Origin: Methylosarcina fibrata AML-C10
Lineage (GTDB): Bacteria > Pseudomonadota > Gammaproteobacteria > Methylococcales > Methylomonadaceae
Direction of reading: 5' to 3'
Length of the DNA stretch: 64,000 bases
Assembly: GCF_000372865.1 (NCBI RefSeq)
Contig: NZ_KB889965.1
Coordinates: 4,733,786 to 4,797,785, forward strand
The translations under genes were made by a program, and so were the position numbers. Within the stretch, counting starts at the first letter, position 1, and each line of letters begins with the position of its first letter. Shown one piece after another: positions 47,644 through 55,995 of this stretch. The notes beneath the pieces were generated by a model that did not search any database, was not told the DNA's origin, and saw nothing but the letters and a program-made list of their open reading frames with translations.

Positions 47644-48447
47644 TCAAGCACCGCCTTTTTTTACCATCATGCCTTTCGAGGGATTATAGCCAATAATTGC
47701 AATACTGATGAAGACGATAAAAGAAACCAGGGTATAAATGAACGCCGGTTGGTTATATTGCGCGTATAAAGCAAACCGGACCAGTTCCACGGCTTGGGAA
47801 AAAGGATTGTATTTGGCCAGCGTATACAGCAAAGGGCTGGATTCTTTTATTTTCCATAAGGGATACAGCGCGGTGGACATGAAAAACATCGGAAAAATTA
47901 CAAAATTCATGACGCCGGCGAAATTTTCCAATTGTTTGATGAACGAAGACAGCAGCAAGCCCAGTGCGCCCAGCATCAAGCCCGACAGCAGCAAGGCCGG
48001 CAGCACCCACAGATAGCCGAGCCAGGGCGCCCTGATCTCATAGGCCCAGGCGATGGCCAGGAACACGTAAGCCTGCAGCACCGACACGCTCACTCCCGCC
48101 AGTAACTTGCTCAAGAGCAAAAACCAGCGGGGCAAGGGAGAGACCAGCAGAATCCGCATGCTGCCCATTTCCCGGTCGTATACCATCGACAAGGAGCTCT
48201 GCATGCCGTTGAACAACTGGATCATTCCGATCAGGCCGGGCGTAATGTAGACTTCGTAGAGAATATAGGTTTCGTACGGCGGTGTAATGGCGAGGCCCAA
48301 CGCCGCCCTGAAGCCTGCGGCAAAAACGAACAGCCAGATCAACGGCCTGACCAGGGCCGATACGAAGCGTTCCCGCTGGGTGAAAAAACGCCAGCATTCG
48401 CGCCAGACAATGCCCCATAGCGCGCGCCAGTAATGCAGTAAGTTCAC
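47644..48447 (-). CDS. ABC-2 permease of the PQQ-dependent alcohol dehydrogenase-associated system
   Basis: Integral membrane protein of 267 residues with about six helices; the N-terminus has WRALWGIVWRECWRFFTQRE, typical of this exporter family. GLIGMIQLFNGMQSSLSMVY and MGSMRILLVSPLPRWFLLLS contain the coupling-helix region. It resembles PedC-type permeases found near PQQ-dependent alcohol dehydrogenases. It overlaps the ATPase gene by 4 bp and is last in a four-gene operon. The cargo is unknown. Confidence 0.88.
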   Translation of the reverse strand: MNLLHYWRALWGIVWRECWRFFTQRERFVSALVRPLIWLFVFAAGFRAALGLAITPPYETYILYEVYITPGLIGMIQLFNGMQSSLSMVYDREMGSMRILLVSPLPRWFLLLSKLLAGVSVSVLQAYVFLAIAWAYEIRAPWLGYLWVLPALLLSGLMLGALGLLLSSFIKQLENFAGVMNFVIFPMFFMSTALYPLWKIKESSPLLYTLAKYNPFSQAVELVRFALYAQYNQPAFIYTLVSFIVFISIAIIGYNPSKGMMVKKGGA

Positions 48448-49184
48448 GCCTGATTTCCCCCTTGAGTCAGTTTGAAAAAAGCGTCTTTAATCTGTAGGCA
48501 GCCGGTAAGCTGCAGAATGTCGTCCACATTGCCCTGGGCCCGAATCACGCCTTTGTGCAATACGATGACCCGGTCTTCCGGATAAATTTCGTCGATCAGA
48601 TGGCTGGCCCAGAGCACGGCGATGTTTTCCTCGGCGGCCAGGCGGTGGACGTGTTCCACGATCGCCAGGCGGCTCGGCACGTCCAGTCCGACGGTCGGTT
48701 CATCGAGCAGCAGCAAGGCGGGCTTATGAATGAGTGCCCGGGCAATTTCCACCCGCCGGCGATGGCCGCCGTTCAGTTGGCGTATTTTTTCGAAGCGACG
48801 CTCGTACATATCCAGCCGTTCCAGTTCCTGCCTTATCCGTTGCCTCGCCAGTTTTCCGCCCATGCCGTGCAGTGACGCGTGATAGCGTAAATTTTGCATC
48901 ACCGTCAGATCCAGATCCAGCGTGGGTTGCTGAAACACCACACCGAGTTTCGCCAAAGCTTTCAAAGTCTGTTTTTTAATGTCGAAACCACAAAGCTCGA
49001 TGCGCCCGTTGCGGGCATCGTACAAACGGGTGATCAATGAAAACAGAGTGCTTTTGCCGGCTCCGTTAGGGCCCAGCAGCAGGGTGCAGGCGCCGGAAGG
49101 AATGCTGAAGCCGACCCGGTCCAGCGCTTTTTTGCCGCTGTATGAAAAGTCCAGATTGTCTACCACCAGTGCCGGAGTCGTCAT
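48444..49184 (-). CDS. ABC ATPase of the PQQ-dependent alcohol dehydrogenase-associated system
   Basis: ATPase of 246 residues: Walker [16 protein letters not shown], signature LNGGHRRRVEIARAL, Walker B ALLLLDEPTVGLD and switch His in WASHLIDEI. The signature has NGG where most have SGG, as is common in this subfamily. I start it at ATG 49184, which overlaps the stop of the beta-propeller gene; the in-frame upstream start at 49205 lies inside that gene. It is translationally coupled on both sides. Confidence 0.92.
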   Translation of the reverse strand: MTTPALVVDNLDFSYSGKKALDRVGFSIPSGACTLLLGPNGAGKSTLFSLITRLYDARNGRIELCGFDIKKQTLKALAKLGVVFQQPTLDLDLTVMQNLRYHASLHGMGGKLARQRIRQELERLDMYERRFEKIRQLNGGHRRRVEIARALIHKPALLLLDEPTVGLDVPSRLAIVEHVHRLAAEENIAVLWASHLIDEIYPEDRVIVLHKGVIRAQGNVDDILQLTGCLQIKDAFFKLTQGGNQA

Positions 49185-50263
49185 GGCTTCACCGCAACGC
49201 CCCACGGATAGGTGCCCACGCCGATCGATTTGGTGACGGTCAGGCTGGGCAGATCGATGATGGACAGGTCGTTGCTCACCCCGTTGGTGGTGTAAAGCCG
49301 TTGTTGATCGGGCGAGAAGGCCAGATTCCAGACCCTTTGCCCGACCAGAAGAAATTTCTCGACTTCCAGCGTTTCGGCATTGACCACGGCGACGCGGTTG
49401 GCAGGCCCCAGGGCGACATAACCTTTTTTTCGATCTTTGTCGATCACCACGCCGACCGGCTGGATCTTATCCGAGGTCACGCCCGGAATTTCGAACCGGA
49501 CAGTCTTGATGATTTGTTTGGTTTTAACGTCGATGACGGACAGGCTGCCGGCCATTTCGGAAGTAACCCACAATTGCCCGCTGTCGGAGGTGAAGCTGAC
49601 CGCGCGGGGCCTCGGGTCGACCAGCGTGTTTTCGGCGATCTCCTGGGTTTTCGCGTCGATCCAGTGCACCATGTTGGTGGTTTCGGTAGCGCTGACGATC
49701 CAGCGATTGTCCGGGCTGACCGTAATGCCTTCGGGTTCGACGCCGACCTTGATCTGCTTGACCGCCTTGCGCTTGGCCGGATCGATGACGGTGACCTGGC
49801 TGTCGTCTTCATTCGAGACGTAAAGCCGGTCGCCCGCAGGGTTCAGAGCAAAGGTTTCGGGATCTTCTCCGGACGGCAGTTTGCCCAGTTCTTTCAAGGA
49901 TTCGGCGTCGAACATCCGGATCGTATCGTCGTCGCTGGTGGCGATATAAAGGATTTTGTGGTCGGGGCTGAGGGCGATGCCGCGCGGCCTTTGCCCCACG
50001 GGCACGGTTTTGATCAGTTGGCCTTTTTCGGGGTCGACGACCGCCAGGGCATTGTCTTTTTCCAGGGTGACGAAGACGGTTTCCGCCCGTGGCGCGCCGG
50101 ACGGCGGAAGCCAGAAGGCCGCTGCCAGCAACGCGGCCGCTGTGTTTGTGGTAACGCCGCGTCGGACGTTCCGGGCCGAAGTGGGGCAGGCGGGTGCCGG
50201 CGTTGAGTGCGGAACGGAATGACGAAGCGGCCGCTTCAGGGAGTTCAACGGATTATTTTTCAT
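49181..50263 (-). CDS. YVTN-type beta-propeller protein of the PQQ-associated ABC system
   Basis: Secreted beta-propeller of 360 residues, with a signal region (about 40-62, TAAALLAAAFWLPPSGAPRA). Repeats of the form xVxVIDxxTxxVxxxIxVG are visible: ALAVVDPEKGQLIKTVPVG, QVTVIDPAKRKAVKQIKVG and VAVVNAETLEVEKFLLVGQ. This protein type is encoded with ABC genes next to PQQ-dependent alcohol dehydrogenases. I start it at ATG 50263, inside the end of the upstream substrate-binding protein gene. The open frame extends further upstream to 50887, but that part antiparallels the neighbour's coding and is not the protein. Confidence 0.9.
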   Translation of the reverse strand: MKNNPLNSLKRPLRHSVPHSTPAPACPTSARNVRRGVTTNTAAALLAAAFWLPPSGAPRAETVFVTLEKDNALAVVDPEKGQLIKTVPVGQRPRGIALSPDHKILYIATSDDDTIRMFDAESLKELGKLPSGEDPETFALNPAGDRLYVSNEDDSQVTVIDPAKRKAVKQIKVGVEPEGITVSPDNRWIVSATETTNMVHWIDAKTQEIAENTLVDPRPRAVSFTSDSGQLWVTSEMAGSLSVIDVKTKQIIKTVRFEIPGVTSDKIQPVGVVIDKDRKKGYVALGPANRVAVVNAETLEVEKFLLVGQRVWNLAFSPDQQRLYTTNGVSNDLSIIDLPSLTVTKSIGVGTYPWGVAVKP

Positions 50264-51503
50264 TGCCTTTTGCCATGTTACATGTCGATTCGGGTTGATC
50301 GTATCCGAGCGTATCCAGTTCGGTTTTCGGGTGCAGAAAGCCTTCGATCGGCGCCACGCCGACCAAAGAACGGGGAGCGGCCAGCAATACCGGCTGCCGT
50401 AATTGTCCGTCCCAGCGCCGAAAAGACAGAGGCACGCCTTTATAGCCCTGCAAAGCGAACGCATCGCCGAAAAGATAGTCCTTGATCGGCTGCCATTGCC
50501 CGGACCGGGTACGGGTGGCCGCTTCACCCAACGCTCTGACCGCCAGATAGGCGCCGTAATCCTGCTCCTCCATCCAGCGCCCGGCGTGTTCCTTGAAGCG
50601 GTTCTGCAATTGCACCGCGCCCCACTGTTCGTGAGTACGGTGCCAGGAAGTCGCGATGAGTCCCTGGGTGCCGATGACCGGCCTCGGCAGCCAGGTGCGA
50701 TACTCGAGATATTCGCCGAACTGGCCTTGTTCGTCGGCGACGACCAGGATGTCGTAGTCATCGACCTGGGTAAAGACCGGAACGTCGGACTGGGCGGTTC
50801 GCCGCGCATCGTACGTATGCTCCCAGGTTTTTTCGGCAACGATGTCCATGCCGAAGCGTTTGGCGGCGCGCCGAATGGCTTCGGCATACAGGCGGTCCCG
50901 TTCGTCCGGCCCCTGGACGAGAAACCAGTGCGTCCAGCGTTTTTTCAGCATGTATTGCGCCAGGGCGTCGGCCCGCATGGCTCGCGTCGGCAGGAAGTGC
51001 AAGACATTGGCCCGGCAATGTTCGTTGCGTAAGGCATCGTCGACCGTGGCTACGTCGAGCAGCAGCGTACGGCTTGCCGAAGGCGAGTCGGCGAGCTGCA
51101 ATAATTTGTTTTCAGGCAAATTGACCACGACGAAGTCGAATTTGCCGCTGATGCTTTGTTTGAATATTTCGACGGGATCTTCGCTCAGCGGCACCAGAAA
51201 TTTTTTCAGGACAAAATGCTGCTTGAGAAACTGTCCGGTCGTGTTGTTGTCGTCGATGGCCAGTTCCGCACCGGGCTCGCCTTTATTCGCGATAAAAGGA
51301 TCCAGATTGGACAGGGCCTTGGGCGCTTCCTGTTCTTGCGTCAAATACGCTATATGGATCGTACTGATCGTTTGGCCGGCTTTTTTCGCATGGGCGGAGC
51401 CGCCGGTTATCAATAAAAAAACGAATAGAATTCTTGTCAATCCAGAGAAAAAATGAGCGATGAACGGCATGAGGATGAAAAAATGAATGTACCGGAAAAG
51501 CAT
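50253..51503 (-). CDS. Periplasmic substrate-binding protein of the PQQ-associated ABC system
   Basis: The 416-residue protein has a signal peptide, best from the second Met (about 12-39, ending GGSAHAKK), so ATG 51470 may be the real start. The mature part looks like a branched-chain amino acid-type binding protein: GAELAIDDNNTTGQFL, then FVVVNLPENKLLQLAD and VLHFLPTRAMRADALAQYML. It matches the substrate-binding type of PQQ-linked alcohol dehydrogenase clusters. It overlaps the next gene by 11 bp and is first in the operon. No alcohol dehydrogenase gene is in the window. Confidence 0.87.
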   Translation of the reverse strand: MLFRYIHFFILMPFIAHFFSGLTRILFVFLLITGGSAHAKKAGQTISTIHIAYLTQEQEAPKALSNLDPFIANKGEPGAELAIDDNNTTGQFLKQHFVLKKFLVPLSEDPVEIFKQSISGKFDFVVVNLPENKLLQLADSPSASRTLLLDVATVDDALRNEHCRANVLHFLPTRAMRADALAQYMLKKRWTHWFLVQGPDERDRLYAEAIRRAAKRFGMDIVAEKTWEHTYDARRTAQSDVPVFTQVDDYDILVVADEQGQFGEYLEYRTWLPRPVIGTQGLIATSWHRTHEQWGAVQLQNRFKEHAGRWMEEQDYGAYLAVRALGEAATRTRSGQWQPIKDYLFGDAFALQGYKGVPLSFRRWDGQLRQPVLLAAPRSLVGVAPIEGFLHPKTELDTLGYDQPESTCNMAKGNEK

Positions 51504-51620: not shown

Positions 51621-52049
51621 ATGACTGATCTTGCTCCTTTTTTCGAATCGATCGACGATATTTTAAATTTTGATCTCGATGGATCCGAGAGTAAATTTGA
51701 CAATCGGCGGGTCGCTACTCGATACATCCGTAACGACATCCAGGCCGTTTTTTATAAAATTGATTTCCTGACTCGTTTCGGCTTTAATTTTTTTCGCCGT
51801 TTGATTCAGGTCCAATTGCTCGACATCAGTACGCGCGGGGTGTTAATCTCGACGGATCAAAAGCTCAAGAAAGGGACCCGAGTCGTTTTGGGATTAAAAT
51901 TCAAATCCGGCCAGACTTTCCGGATCAAAGCGGTGATCGTCAGGAAAGCGTCGGAATCGGATTATGAATACGGAATCAAGTTTAACGAATGTCACAATGA
52001 GCTGGGCGATTATTTGGTGTCGACGCAGAGCGAATTGAAGTTCAGATGA
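51621..52049 (+). CDS. PilZ-domain protein
   Basis: The 142-residue protein has the PilZ c-di-GMP-binding pattern: an N-terminal basic motif NRRVATRY, and then LLDISTRGVLIS (D/NxSxxG) in the first strand pair. EYGIKFNECHNELGDYL closes the domain. It is divergent from the ABC operon, separated by 117 bp, and could use c-di-GMP to modulate motility or secretion. The target is not known. Confidence 0.85.
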   Translation: MTDLAPFFESIDDILNFDLDGSESKFDNRRVATRYIRNDIQAVFYKIDFLTRFGFNFFRRLIQVQLLDISTRGVLISTDQKLKKGTRVVLGLKFKSGQTFRIKAVIVRKASESDYEYGIKFNECHNELGDYLVSTQSELKFR

Positions 52050-52222: not shown

Positions 52223-53047
52223 ATGATTTCCATTAAATTGAGCGGCCTTTTCGTTTACCCCGTTAAATCCCTGGCGGGCATTTCCGTGCCTCGCTGGCCG
52301 GTGGTTGAAACAGGCCTGAAGTATGACCGGAAATGGATGATTGTTGATGAAAGCGGGCAATTTCTCAGTCAACGCAAGATGGCCAGTCTGGCTTTAATCA
52401 AAACCTCTCTGACCGAGAGCGAGTTGATTCTTTCGGCTCCGGCGATGAAAGATCTTGTTTTGCCTCTGGAAAGCGGGGAGGGCGATCTTGTCCCGGTTAC
52501 GATCTGGCACGACCAGGGTTTTGCCCGTACCGTTTCTTCCGAAGCCGACCGATGGTTGAGCCGTTTTTTACGTATGGACTGCCGGCTGGTACGCCAGCCC
52601 GACGACGAAATACGCAAAGTGGATCCGGCCTACGGCGGTCCTGCCGACCGAGTGGCTTTTTCGGACGGTTTTCCTTTTTTGCTGGTTTCGGAGAATTCGC
52701 TGGCTTCATTGAACGAAGCCATGCGGTTGATCCTGCCGATGTCCCGTTTTCGCCCCAATCTGGTGGTTTCCGGATGCGCCGCCTATGCGGAGGACGCCTG
52801 GCGCGAGATCGGCATCGGCGCGATCGGGTTCAGGCTGCCCAAGCCCTGCTCCCGCTGCGTGGTGCCGACGATCGATCAGGAGACGGGGGCGATGGGGAAA
52901 GAGCCGCTGGCGACGCTCAATCGAACGAGAAAATGGCAAAATAAAGTCTATTTCGGCCAGAACGCCCTGCATGACCGATGCGGCGAGTTGCGCATCGGAG
53001 ATGAGGTCCGGATTAAATCGACCGGACCGCAGCAGCCGCCTCTTTAA
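52223..53047 (+). CDS. MOSC-domain protein (YcbX-like)
   Basis: The 274-residue protein has an N-terminal MOSC beta-barrel domain (about 5-115, LSGLFVYPVKSLAGISVPRW) and a C-terminal MOSC domain with the molybdenum-cofactor cysteine in PKPCSRCVVPTIDQETG. SRFRPNLVVSG is the shared middle motif. In E. coli YcbX-type proteins reduce N-hydroxylated compounds with a Moco-bound core. The C-terminal ferredoxin domain of full-length YcbX is missing, so a partner reductase would be needed. Confidence 0.88.
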   Translation: MISIKLSGLFVYPVKSLAGISVPRWPVVETGLKYDRKWMIVDESGQFLSQRKMASLALIKTSLTESELILSAPAMKDLVLPLESGEGDLVPVTIWHDQGFARTVSSEADRWLSRFLRMDCRLVRQPDDEIRKVDPAYGGPADRVAFSDGFPFLLVSENSLASLNEAMRLILPMSRFRPNLVVSGCAAYAEDAWREIGIGAIGFRLPKPCSRCVVPTIDQETGAMGKEPLATLNRTRKWQNKVYFGQNALHDRCGELRIGDEVRIKSTGPQQPPL

Positions 53048-53144
53048 GTGTTTTCCGGCAGATCCGGCTGTGCTCCGCCGAGCGAATGAACCTGCTGAAT
53101 ATCGGCGGTTCCGGCTTTTGCCTTCCATCGTGTTTTCCGTTTCC

Positions 53145-54863
53145 ATGAAAAGCGATTCTTTTTTCAATTTGTTCTTGCCCGCGTTGAGCCGTCGCCAATG
53201 GCTCAAGGGAATGATTTCCGGCGGCATGATGCTGGCCTTGCCCTCCTGGCTTAAAACCGGTCTCGGCAAGCCGGCAAGAGAACCTGTGCCGGTACTTGGC
53301 GGCAACGAGTTCAAACTGGTCATCGCCAGGACGCCGGTCAATTTTTCCGGCAAAGAGCGCCTGGCCATCACCGTCAACGGCTCGTTGCCCGCGCCGATAC
53401 TGCATTGGCGGGAAGGCGACACGGTGACTCTGCACGTTGAGAACCGGCTCGACGAGGAAACGTCGATTCACTGGCATGGCATCCTCCTGCCCTACGACAT
53501 GGACGGCGCGCCCGGCGTCAGCTACAAGGGGATTGCCCCGGGTGAAACCTTCAGCTACCGCTTTAAAGTCCGCCAGTCCGGCACGTACTGGTACCATTCG
53601 CATTCGGGCATGCAGGAGCAGGTCGGACTCTATGGCTCTATCGTGATCGATCCTTTAAATCCGGAGCCGGTCGAAGCCCATCGCGACTATGTCGTGCAAC
53701 TGTCCGACTGGACCGACGAAGACCCGATGGCGGTTTTCGCCAAATTGAAGAAGCAGAGCGACTATTACAACTTCAACCAGCCTACGGCCGTCGATTTTTT
53801 TAAAGACATCAGGCGCCAGGGATTCTTCTCCGCTCTCGAGCAGCGCCGGATGTGGAATCGGATGCGCATGAGCCCGACCGATTTATCCGATATTTCGGCC
53901 CATACCTACACTTATCTGATCAACGGCGCGACCCCGGACGACAACTGGACTGGTGTGTTCCGGCCGGGCGAAAAGGTACGGCTGCGGCTGATCAATTCCG
54001 CAGCGCAGACTTATTTCGACGTGCGCATTCCGGGGCTCAAAATGACCGTGGTGCAGGCGGACGGGCAGAGCATCGAACCGGTCGACGTGGATGAGATCCG
54101 GATCGCCGTCGCCGAAACCTACGATGTGATCGTCACTCCGACGGAAGAGGCCCATACCCTTTTTGCCCAATCCATGGATCGGACCGGCTATGCCCGGGGG
54201 ACTTTGGCAATACGCCCCGGCATGACCGCGAAGATTCCGGAACTCGACCTGCCGGTTCCCTTGTCCATGTCGGACATGATGGGCGCCATGGAACACGGAG
54301 AACACGCCGGACATGCCGGCCACGTTGCTTCCGGAAAACGGATACAGGCGCATCATGCCCGCAGCGAATACGGCGCCGGCGTCGACATGCGCGTGGACTG
54401 GCCGCGCACCAATCTGGACGATCCGGGCATCGGCCTGAGAAACAACGGCCGCAGGGTATTGACCTACGCCGACCTGCGCACGTTGGGAGGCGCGCCCGAT
54501 CCCAGGCCGGCCGAACGCGAGATCGAGCTCCATCTGACCGGCAACATGGCCCGCTACAGTTGGTCCCTGGACGGACTCGAATTCGGCAACTCGACGCCGA
54601 TCCATTTCCGCCACGGCGAGCGCCTGCGAGTGATTCTGGTCAACGACACGATGATGACTCATCCGATGCATTTGCACGGCATGTGGAGCGATCTGGAAAG
54701 CCCCGGCGGCGGTTTTCAGGTGCGCAAGCACGTCATCAGCGTGCAGCCGGCCCAGCGGGTCAGTTTTCTGGTCACGGCCGATGCGCCGGGGTATTGGGTA
54801 TGGCATTGCCATCTGTTTTATCACATGCATGCCGGCATGTTCCGAGTGGTCGTCGTGGCATGA
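53145..54863 (+). CDS. copA: Copper-resistance multicopper oxidase CopA
   Basis: Periplasmic multicopper oxidase of 572 residues with a twin-arginine signal (SRRQWLKG, 15-22). Copper sites are visible as SIHWHGILLP, TYWYHSHSGMQEQVG, HPMHLHGMW and HCHLFYHMHAGMF, in the order expected for types 1-3 copper. A Met/His-rich insertion (about 380-405, MSDMMGAMEHGEHAGHAGH) could bind extra copper. I start it at ATG 53145; an upstream in-frame start at 52785 would overlap the MOSC gene and hide the signal peptide. It oxidises Cu(I) and confers copper tolerance in related bacteria. Confidence 0.93.
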   Translation: MKSDSFFNLFLPALSRRQWLKGMISGGMMLALPSWLKTGLGKPAREPVPVLGGNEFKLVIARTPVNFSGKERLAITVNGSLPAPILHWREGDTVTLHVENRLDEETSIHWHGILLPYDMDGAPGVSYKGIAPGETFSYRFKVRQSGTYWYHSHSGMQEQVGLYGSIVIDPLNPEPVEAHRDYVVQLSDWTDEDPMAVFAKLKKQSDYYNFNQPTAVDFFKDIRRQGFFSALEQRRMWNRMRMSPTDLSDISAHTYTYLINGATPDDNWTGVFRPGEKVRLRLINSAAQTYFDVRIPGLKMTVVQADGQSIEPVDVDEIRIAVAETYDVIVTPTEEAHTLFAQSMDRTGYARGTLAIRPGMTAKIPELDLPVPLSMSDMMGAMEHGEHAGHAGHVASGKRIQAHHARSEYGAGVDMRVDWPRTNLDDPGIGLRNNGRRVLTYADLRTLGGAPDPRPAEREIELHLTGNMARYSWSLDGLEFGNSTPIHFRHGERLRVILVNDTMMTHPMHLHGMWSDLESPGGGFQVRKHVISVQPAQRVSFLVTADAPGYWVWHCHLFYHMHAGMFRVVVVA

Positions 54864-54933
54864 GCGATTGTTTTCACCGGCGGTTATTCATTTCCGCGTT
54901 TGTGCGGATATTCCGGAATGAGGCGGACAGGAC

Positions 54934-55995
54934 ATGAAGCGGAGACTGACGCGCCTTGCGGCGGCTTTTGTCCTGATCTGGCCGCCTCTGGCGGGGGCTC
55001 AGGAAGATCAGGCGCATCCGGATAGCCCTATGGAACATGAAGGGCATTCCGAAGCCATGAGCCATTCCGCGCCGGAGAACGAACCGCCGGCAGCGGAACC
55101 CGGCGAATCTACCGAGGCCTCGTTCCCGGACAGCCCTCCGGAGCAGAATCAGGAAACCATGCCGCCTATGGATCATACCGGGCACAAGATGCCGCCGATG
55201 CCTGCCGATCAGGCCGAAGCCTCTCATTCCTCTCCCGGCACGGAGAGGCCCGAGCACGGGTCCGCCGCGATGCAGGGCGGATCGCCGCCCCCGGACGCGC
55301 GGGATCCTGCTGCGTATGCCGAAGGTTACGGTTTCGGCCCCCTGCCGCCGCCGGAAATGGCCGACGTGGAGTATTTCAACGCACTTCTCGTGGACCGGCT
55401 GGAAAGTCTGAGCACCGGCAGTACGACCTTCATGACCTACGATTTTCAATATTGGTGGGGAAAAACTTTTGACCGGGCGCTGGTCCGTGCCGAAGGGGAC
55501 ATCGACGACGGCACTTTTCAGCACGCGCGCACCGAATTGCTCTGGGCGCATGCGGCGGACCCGAACTGGGATACCCATCTGGGCATTCGCTACGACAAAG
55601 GCTTCGGTCCCGACCGAGGTTGGCTGGCGCTGGGGGTTCAGGGGATGGCGCCTTACTGGGTATACGTTGAAGCGACCGCCTACGTGGGCGAGGAAGGCAG
55701 AACGGCATTCCGGCTGGAAACCGAATACGACGTATTGCTGACGCAGAAACTGGTCCTGCAGCCCCGTACGGAGGCGAACTTTTACGGCAAAAAAGACCCC
55801 GCGCGCGCTTTGGGGCATGGATTATCGGATCTTTCCATCGGCCTGCGCCTGCGATACGAAGTCTGGCGCGAGCTGGCACCGTACATCGGGATCGAGTGGG
55901 CCGGCCGGTTCGGGGATACGGCGGATTATTTAAGAAACGCCGGCAACCGTACCGATGAAATACGGGCGGTTGCCGGGGTGCAGTTTTGGTATTGA
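54934..55995 (+). CDS. copB: Copper-resistance outer-membrane protein CopB
   Basis: The 353-residue protein starts with a signal peptide (about 1-22) followed by a Met/His/Pro/Glu-rich segment (about 25-115) with repeated MDHTGHKMPPMP-like and MEHEGHSEAM motifs, which can bind copper. The remaining C-terminal 225 residues form the CopB beta-barrel (for example HARTELLWAHAADPNWDTHL, then GLRLRYEVWRELAPYIG). It ends in FWY as outer-membrane proteins do. It lies 70 bp after copA, as in the Pseudomonas copAB pair; no copRS regulator is in the window. Confidence 0.92.
   Translation: MKRRLTRLAAAFVLIWPPLAGAQEDQAHPDSPMEHEGHSEAMSHSAPENEPPAAEPGESTEASFPDSPPEQNQETMPPMDHTGHKMPPMPADQAEASHSSPGTERPEHGSAAMQGGSPPPDARDPAAYAEGYGFGPLPPPEMADVEYFNALLVDRLESLSTGSTTFMTYDFQYWWGKTFDRALVRAEGDIDDGTFQHARTELLWAHAADPNWDTHLGIRYDKGFGPDRGWLALGVQGMAPYWVYVEATAYVGEEGRTAFRLETEYDVLLTQKLVLQPRTEANFYGKKDPARALGHGLSDLSIGLRLRYEVWRELAPYIGIEWAGRFGDTADYLRNAGNRTDEIRAVAGVQFWY

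Follow-up and report, generated by a model that had tools for sequence, protein, structure and literature searches.

A PedA1A2BC/LutABEF-type ABC operon of Methylosarcina fibrata and its probable part in lanthanide supply to a distant methanol dehydrogenase

The operon and its family

The stretch of DNA considered here, hereafter the window, is 64,000 nucleotides of Methylosarcina fibrata AML-C10, a methane oxidiser of the order Methylococcales (contig C1, positions 4733786 to 4797785, of a 4.98-Mb genome in 2 contigs). On its reverse strand, at 47644-51503, the open reading frames (ORFs) give four genes of an ATP-binding cassette (ABC) system in the order periplasmic binding protein, YVTN beta-propeller, ATPase and permease. 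An initial sequence-only reading had described them as tightly overlapping, and so they are, by 11 bp at the PedA1/PedA2 junction and by 4 bp at each of the PedA2/PedB and PedB/PedC junctions, an arrangement by which PedA1-A2-B-C is predicted to be one unit. The 568-aa reading of the propeller ORF is over-long, with an in-frame ATG at 50263. Scans for promoters and terminators gave no excess over shuffled sequence (3 versus 2.8, and 6 versus 6.4, respectively).

Since all four subunits exceed the curated cut-offs of NCBIfam, the operon is assigned by profile to the known lanthanide ABC family of PedA1A2BC and LutABEF. PedA1 scores 490 bits with TIGR03863 (cut-off 413.6), PedA2 462.5 with TIGR03866 (287.3), PedB 345.6 with TIGR03864 (302.25) and PedC 402.6 with TIGR03861 (241.35), and the Pfam matches in the operon are Peripla_BP_6, ABC_tran and ABC2_membrane. 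After its own family the permease matches DrrB, SagH, NodJ and KpsM-type proteins. Identity with the DrrAB or NodIJ exporters was rejected, for the permease (drrB 110.3 of 223.05 bits, nodJ 30.5 of 206.65) as for the ATPase (drrA 178 of 312.45, nodI 117.8 of 424). A classical type I/II importer permease domain (BPD_transp or FecCD) was not found in PedC, Pfam at E 0.001 matching ABC-2 families only. Two metal systems with periplasmic partners were also set aside: AztABCD, whose AztD model is absent from the PedA2 matches at E 0.001 and scores 19.7 bits of the required 400 with a PedA2 paralogue, and NosDFY, the periplasmic partner here being a TIGR03866 YVTN propeller with no NosD-type partner in the operon. 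Ten proteins were scanned, those of the operon and of its surroundings, and none is a TonB receptor or EF-hand protein; the genome was not searched for outer-membrane lanthanide receptor families.

The pairing of a periplasmic binding protein with an ABC-2 permease had been singled out as odd, and structure models of both bear this out. The AlphaFold2 model of PedA1 (predicted local distance difference test score, pLDDT, 90.2) has structural neighbours down to a Foldseek E of 2.8e-16, and its best VIA-align row is a binding protein of a branched-chain amino-acid transporter (Z 32.7, root-mean-square deviation (rmsd) 2.7, 328 positions aligned), by which the protein is modelled as a type I binding protein of the LivJ and AmiC kind. 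Several of the neighbours bind 4-hydroxybenzoate or amino acids. Two cysteines (C163, C408) and seven acids (D85, D179, D203, D257, D397, D402, E405) are invariant in 46 PedA1 sequences. The PedC model (pLDDT 83.9) matches chains of ABCH, KpsM, NosY, ABCG25, Wzm and TarG, with Z from 15.7 to 20.4 among the 50 rows listed, all of them, we take it, of ABC-2 type; the comparison bears on the ABC-2-type chains that it lists. No match stands out by function. NosY chains gave Foldseek E-values of 1.4e-4 to 2.4e-3 among the matches listed, and at best Z 17.3 (rmsd 4.4, 229 aligned) with VIA-align, no better than KpsM, TarG or ABCG25, so that a NosY-like ABC-2 fold is present without a likeness specific to NosDFY. 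Such a fold does not forbid import, since ABCA4, which we take to be an importer, is among the matches. A sequence search of the PDB found no relative of the permease at E up to 1 and one weak match to the binding protein (E 0.086).

Dehydrogenase partners and occurrence

Has the system, then, been left without an enzyme to serve? When the profile matches of the whole genome are mapped, no PQQ (pyrroloquinoline quinone) dehydrogenase or pqqE match falls inside the window, as the sequence-only reading had stated, and directly upstream of 51503 lies a PilZ gene and no dehydrogenase. Matches to PQQ dehydrogenases occur at two places only. That at ~3.235 Mb, 1.5 Mb from the operon, carries the motif HDEWDYDGI, directly precedes a gene for a MoxJ-like binding protein and is identified by its sequence as the lanthanide-type XoxF; that at ~4.324 Mb, 0.46 Mb from the operon and inside the mxa cluster, carries HDEWDYAGV and is by the same token the calcium enzyme MxaF. 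The gene pqqE exceeds its cut-off and stands among pqqA-, pqqB-, pqqC-, pqqD- and pqqE-like frames, with domain matches for B and E; the A, C and D frames are presumably such by their appearance. The second aspartate of the dehydrogenase motif is reported to mark the lanthanide type (PMC9291206). The partners that the earlier reading had proposed to look for are thus encoded, pqq genes included, so that its refuting case for the PQQ link, a genome devoid of PQQ genes, does not apply; a 'dehydrogenase-less system' is ruled out, and the operon is largely ordinary because its dehydrogenase simply lies elsewhere in the genome.

The tie between system and enzyme is much broader than one genome. In a phylum sample of 299 evenly drawn genomes, PedC (at E <=1e-60) occurs in 41 and a PQQ dehydrogenase (at E <=1e-100) in 67; all 41 PedC genomes have the enzyme versus 26 of the 258 without PedC (Fisher p 5e-33, kinship ignored), which, together with the four family cut-offs, upholds the proposed link to PQQ-dependent alcohol dehydrogenases. 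The lanthanide-type aspartate likewise is encoded in 41/41 PedC genomes versus at least 9/26 genomes with a dehydrogenase only (p 9e-10, kinship again ignored), the metal class being one residue read by pairwise alignment to the XoxF or MxaF of the window's genome, and 9/26 being a lower bound since up to 4 dehydrogenase candidates were scored per genome. At least one dehydrogenase was read for each PedC-positive genome, and all 42 listed matches were read for the PedC-negative ones; G246 (G numbers denote genomes, L numbers loci) was placed by its third dehydrogenase, with the lanthanide-type HDGWDFDGV.

Within the order a second sample, of 101 genomes (own genome, its family and the order), has PedC above cut-off in 98, PedA2 in 100 and a PQQ dehydrogenase in 97, and since the permease exceeds its cut-off in 98 of 101 the operon is no chance assembly. 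Among 54 named loci found via the binding protein, all of Methylococcales (Methylobacter, Methyloglobulus, Crenothrix, Methylovulum and others), the A1-A2-B-C order is complete in 47, the remaining 7 stopping at a contig edge, and none has a PQQ dehydrogenase in its flanks, which extend to 10 kb and are often shorter; nor has any of the 18 PedC-holding loci of the set L171-L190. Outside the order the same gene order is seen in 32/40 loci, and in 16/40 a PQQ dehydrogenase match lies no more than ~9 kb from the permease. A lone operon is therefore what the examined Methylococcales loci regularly show, with linkage to a dehydrogenase common elsewhere, and the absence of a neighbouring dehydrogenase, earlier taken for a peculiarity, loses that standing.

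PedC above cut-off is wanting in G073, G074 and G033; in the first two PedA1 and PedA2 are present, at the ends of contigs. In five genomes (G070, G084, G104, G147, G159; those where contig breaks part the genes are excluded from the count) the propeller is away from PedB/PedC, and in all five it is present elsewhere above cut-off, so the propeller belongs to the system. Three loci of a single family within the same class (L168-L170, of G346, G119 and G331) hold divergent versions, with PedC, PedA1 and PedA2 arranged differently and adjoined by PedB and PQQ dehydrogenase genes; their propellers are long branches in the tree described below.

Lanthanide supply and the rival explanations

The sequence-only reading held the cargo to be unknown, a view overtaken by genetics, which links homologous four-gene sets to the supply of lanthanide. 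Deletion of pedA1A2BC in Pseudomonas putida raised the lanthanum (La) need for growth via PedH about 100-fold, and the authors concluded that lanthanide is imported into the cytoplasm (PMC6839425); a 2026 review of ped uses the name 'PedA1A2BC lanthanide transporter' (PMC12997753). In Methylorubrum extorquens, lutE and lutF mutants grew on methanol with La only once suppressors had arisen, lutA mutants grew slowly, and in mutants of all three genes La deposits were periplasmic, versus cytoplasmic in the wild type (PMC7391723). Elsewhere, lutBAH-like genes adjoin xoxF1 in Methylocella silvestris and go down 3- to 5-fold with lanthanum (PMC9291206), and a TIGR03866-family propeller is drawn in the xoxF3 clusters of Acidobacteria and Gemmatimonadetes (PMC10875860). 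A term search of the available text of a 2025 survey of the methanotroph lanthanome did not find the names LutA, LutB or LutE (PMC12482762). From Methylococcus capsulatus the literature has ABC genes that may or may not be of the Ped kind: MCA2578-2580, down with Ce, and MCA1278, from a CRISPR interference (CRISPRi) screen.

Component for component the present operon corresponds to that of P. putida KT2440, after which its genes are named and their roles given (PMC6839425, PMC12997753), but the latter sits inside the ped cluster with dehydrogenases, whereas here the operon is alone with XoxF 1.5 Mb off. The ATPase, with Walker A GPNGAGKS, has the signature LNGGH in place of LSGGQ; LNGGH is found in 71/75 Methylococcales copies and 13/40 loci outside the order, where LSGGQ is found in 23/40, the KT2440 sequence itself lying outside the comparison. 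To LutABEF of M. extorquens AM1 the likeness is again of binding protein, exported protein (LutB, termed a YVTN propeller in PMC9291206), ATPase and permease, though the AM1 genes belong to a 10-gene cluster with the TonB receptor gene lutH and lanmodulin. The zinc system AztABCD likewise unites in an operon its ABC transporter, the binding protein AztC and a beta-propeller, the metallochaperone AztD, which passes metal to AztC, but AztC is a cluster A-I zinc protein (PMC6689063), PedA1 is LivJ-like and the propeller here is not of the AztD family.

On this footing we consider the operon to be, at a probability of about three in four, a lanthanide ABC import system that keeps XoxF active at low metal. 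Family membership and the presence of an XoxF partner come from the analysis itself; cargo and direction would follow those of the homologues. That the PedC genomes all encode a PQQ dehydrogenase with the lanthanide-type aspartate speaks for a supply role. Lanthanide, bare or chelated, would enter the periplasm through an outer-membrane receptor; the PedA2 propeller might hold or hand over the metal, or dock the complex; the type I binding protein PedA1 would deliver it to an ABC-2 core, presumably PedB2C2, which would move it to the cytoplasm, in keeping with the published mutants of the M. extorquens homologues; and the methanol dehydrogenase XoxF, 1.5 Mb away, would thereby stay active when metal is scarce. 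The correction to an unknown cargo and a missing dehydrogenase would then be lanthanide supply, by homology, for an XoxF that is routinely unlinked in Methylococcales.

Several observations sit awkwardly with import. PedC belongs to an export-type permease family. The leader of XoxF is Sec-like, without twin arginines, by which cytoplasmic metal would not be expected to meet folded XoxF, and the P. putida authors pose the same puzzle of cytoplasmic metal and periplasmic enzyme (PMC6839425). At least nine PedC-negative genomes in the phylum sample (no match at E 1e-60: G247, G323, G329, G349, G350, G356, G368, G383, G394) encode the lanthanide-type aspartate, which suggests that lanthanide-type enzymes are able to work without the PedABC system or via another route. 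G033 has XoxF among two PQQ dehydrogenases and PedA1 among intact neighbours (locus L215), but neither PedA2 above cut-off nor PedB nor PedC was found in its 310 contigs, where an assembly gap is indistinguishable from gene loss.

The puzzle of compartments would dissolve if the system were a maturation machine of the periplasm, its ABC-2 core working PedA2 and PedA1 by ATP-driven movement so as to load XoxF with lanthanide, alone or together with PQQ, and with no net import. NosDFY, the copper-site assembly system of N2O reductase, is the precedent, with its ABC-2 permease fold and periplasmic partner; it serves a periplasmic metalloenzyme. The match of PedC to NosY chains, a PDB entry whose title has NosDFY with its client NosZ, the Sec-like leader of XoxF and a second PedA2 copy near mxa and MxaY-like genes (discussed below) could all be read in its favour. 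It is nevertheless unlikely, though the chief rival to import. NosY scores no better than KpsM, TarG and ABCG25, and the partners here are a YVTN propeller and a binding protein; NosD to our knowledge is not a YVTN propeller, and we know of no LivJ-type binding protein in NosDFY. The La deposits of M. extorquens lut mutants were periplasmic, not cytoplasmic (PMC7391723), and the PedH apoenzyme is activated by lanthanide in vitro (PMC6839425). The literature search found no paper bringing NosDFY and lanthanide together.

Taking the permease at face value, as an ABC-2 protein whose next NCBIfam matches are DrrB, SagH, NodJ and KpsM-type proteins and with KpsM among its best structural matches, one might instead envisage secretion to the periplasm of a small chelator (a lanthanophore) or other factor, the binding protein reclaiming the loaded form. 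With DrrB and NodJ scoring far below their cut-offs, no biosynthesis genes among the four operon genes or the neighbours scanned, and the published La localisation better fitting import (PMC7391723), export is a long shot. Scarcely credible is transport of alcohols, aldehydes or aromatic acids, for which the old family name 'alcohol ABC transporter' and the ligands of several PedA1 neighbours (4-hydroxybenzoate, amino acids) might be invoked: presence of the system tracks the lanthanide-type aspartate of the dehydrogenase, and alcohol transport is ruled out by the growth of pedA1A2BC mutants on phenylacetaldehyde and phenylacetate (PMC6839425). For the import system preferred here, the interest is then in how an export-type ABC-2 permease and a LivJ-like binding protein handle lanthanides, and in what the propeller contributes.

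The propeller and its copy at the lanthanide switch

Across 118 operon propellers, conservation reaches 95% or more at 74 positions of PedA2, 18 of them acidic. Its equivalent blade loops, aligned by eye, read RPR, DPE, EPE, RPR, QPV, RVW and YPW, and the conserved acid pairs on two adjacent blades may be read as a putative metal site.

A second full-length propeller copy is present in 12 genomes of the order, a count that omits G040, where contig ends leave both propeller matches as fragments. In 10 of the 12 (all save G090 and G099) it adjoins genes of the lanthanide switch or of the mxa cluster: mxa genes, PepSY, or genes for an MxaY-like kinase or an MxaB-like regulator. To gauge chance, 107 PedC-holding loci were scored for the same markers, with MxaB-like regulators in 19, MxaY-like kinases in 12 and mxa genes in at most 5, so that the MxaB-like and MxaY-like markers alone are not specific. 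M. fibrata itself has the copy (449.9 bits with TIGR03866), with the genes of an MxaY-like kinase and of the propeller lying head to head, 148 bp apart, followed by PepSY and then mxaC to mxaF; the kinase has a LapD/MoxY periplasmic domain and the PepSY gene is PF03413. For Methylotuvimicrobium buryatense no component of the lanthanide switch upstream of MxaY was known as of 2016, and a regulator 50% identical to MxaB lies downstream of MxaY there (PMC5018670), as an MxaB-like regulator lies downstream of the MxaY-like kinase in several of the present loci also. LanPepSY is listed among the lanthanide binders of methanotrophs (PMC12482762).

In a quick tree of 100 of the 132 propellers (20 named Methylococcales operon copies kept, the rest dropped randomly), the nine switch-locus propellers that six genera of the window's family contribute group as a single clade (Shimodaira-Hasegawa-like approximate likelihood-ratio test, SH-aLRT, 99), and hence there was one duplication and not nine events. 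Three second copies of another family (L199-L201) are separate long branches. The copy is not needed for the switch locus, as genomes without it (L218, L228) still keep MxaY, PepSY and mxa together.

Could the propeller be the part that reads lanthanide? We offer tentatively, and would not wager on, the proposal that the acid-rich PedA2/LutB hands metal to PedA1 in the operon, and that in part of the window's family a duplicate was recruited to the lanthanide switch, where it would report the presence of lanthanide to the MxaY-like kinase. As a possible partner in the lanthanide sensing of the methanol-dehydrogenase switch, the second propeller is the best lead from this work. A link between propeller and MxaY was not found in the literature searched, outside which subscription papers mostly fell, and the terms 'propeller' and 'YVTN' are absent from the available text of the MxaY paper (PMC5018670).

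Between mxaD- and mxaB-like genes in locus L192 sits yet another YVTN propeller, the third and a more distant one (126.2 bits, below the TIGR03866 cut-off), with a relative in L204. In L006 a TonB-dependent receptor with an N-terminal HupE/UreJ domain adjoins mxaB- and mxaD-like genes and is possibly an outer-membrane metal receptor. Coordinates of these and of the operon genes are collected in Table 1.

Table 1. Positions of the operon genes, their neighbours and related genes at other loci (window coordinates unless a locus is named)
Feature	Position	Strand	Basis or remark
PedA1/LutA-type periplasmic binding protein, type I LivJ/AmiC-like fold, 416 aa	50253..51503	-	TIGR03863, AlphaFold2 model
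PedA2/LutB-type YVTN beta-propeller, N-terminal signal-like stretch, 360 aa from ATG 50263	49181..50263	-	TIGR03866
PedB/LutE-type ATPase, probable start ATG 49184	48444..49184	-	TIGR03864, start context, motif survey
PedC/LutF-type ABC-2 permease, GTG start	47644..48447	-	TIGR03861, ABC2_membrane, structure model
PilZ-domain gene, divergent, upstream of operon; neither dehydrogenase nor system member	51621..52049	+	PF07238
CopA-type multicopper oxidase ORF	52785..54863		true start probably downstream
CopB	54934..55995		
Second PedA2-type propeller, own genome	L202 9712-10668; G000:C1 ~4.3147-4.3157 Mb	+	449.9 bits, cut-off 287.3
Third, more distant YVTN propeller	L192 12061-13014	+	below TIGR03866 cut-off
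TonB-dependent receptor, N-terminal HupE/UreJ domain	L006 13814-16396	-	
PedA1 of G033	L215 6564-7799	-	

Around the operon itself, MOSC, CopA and CopB genes lie farther off, beyond the PilZ gene, the last two making up a copper-resistance pair at window positions 52785-55995.

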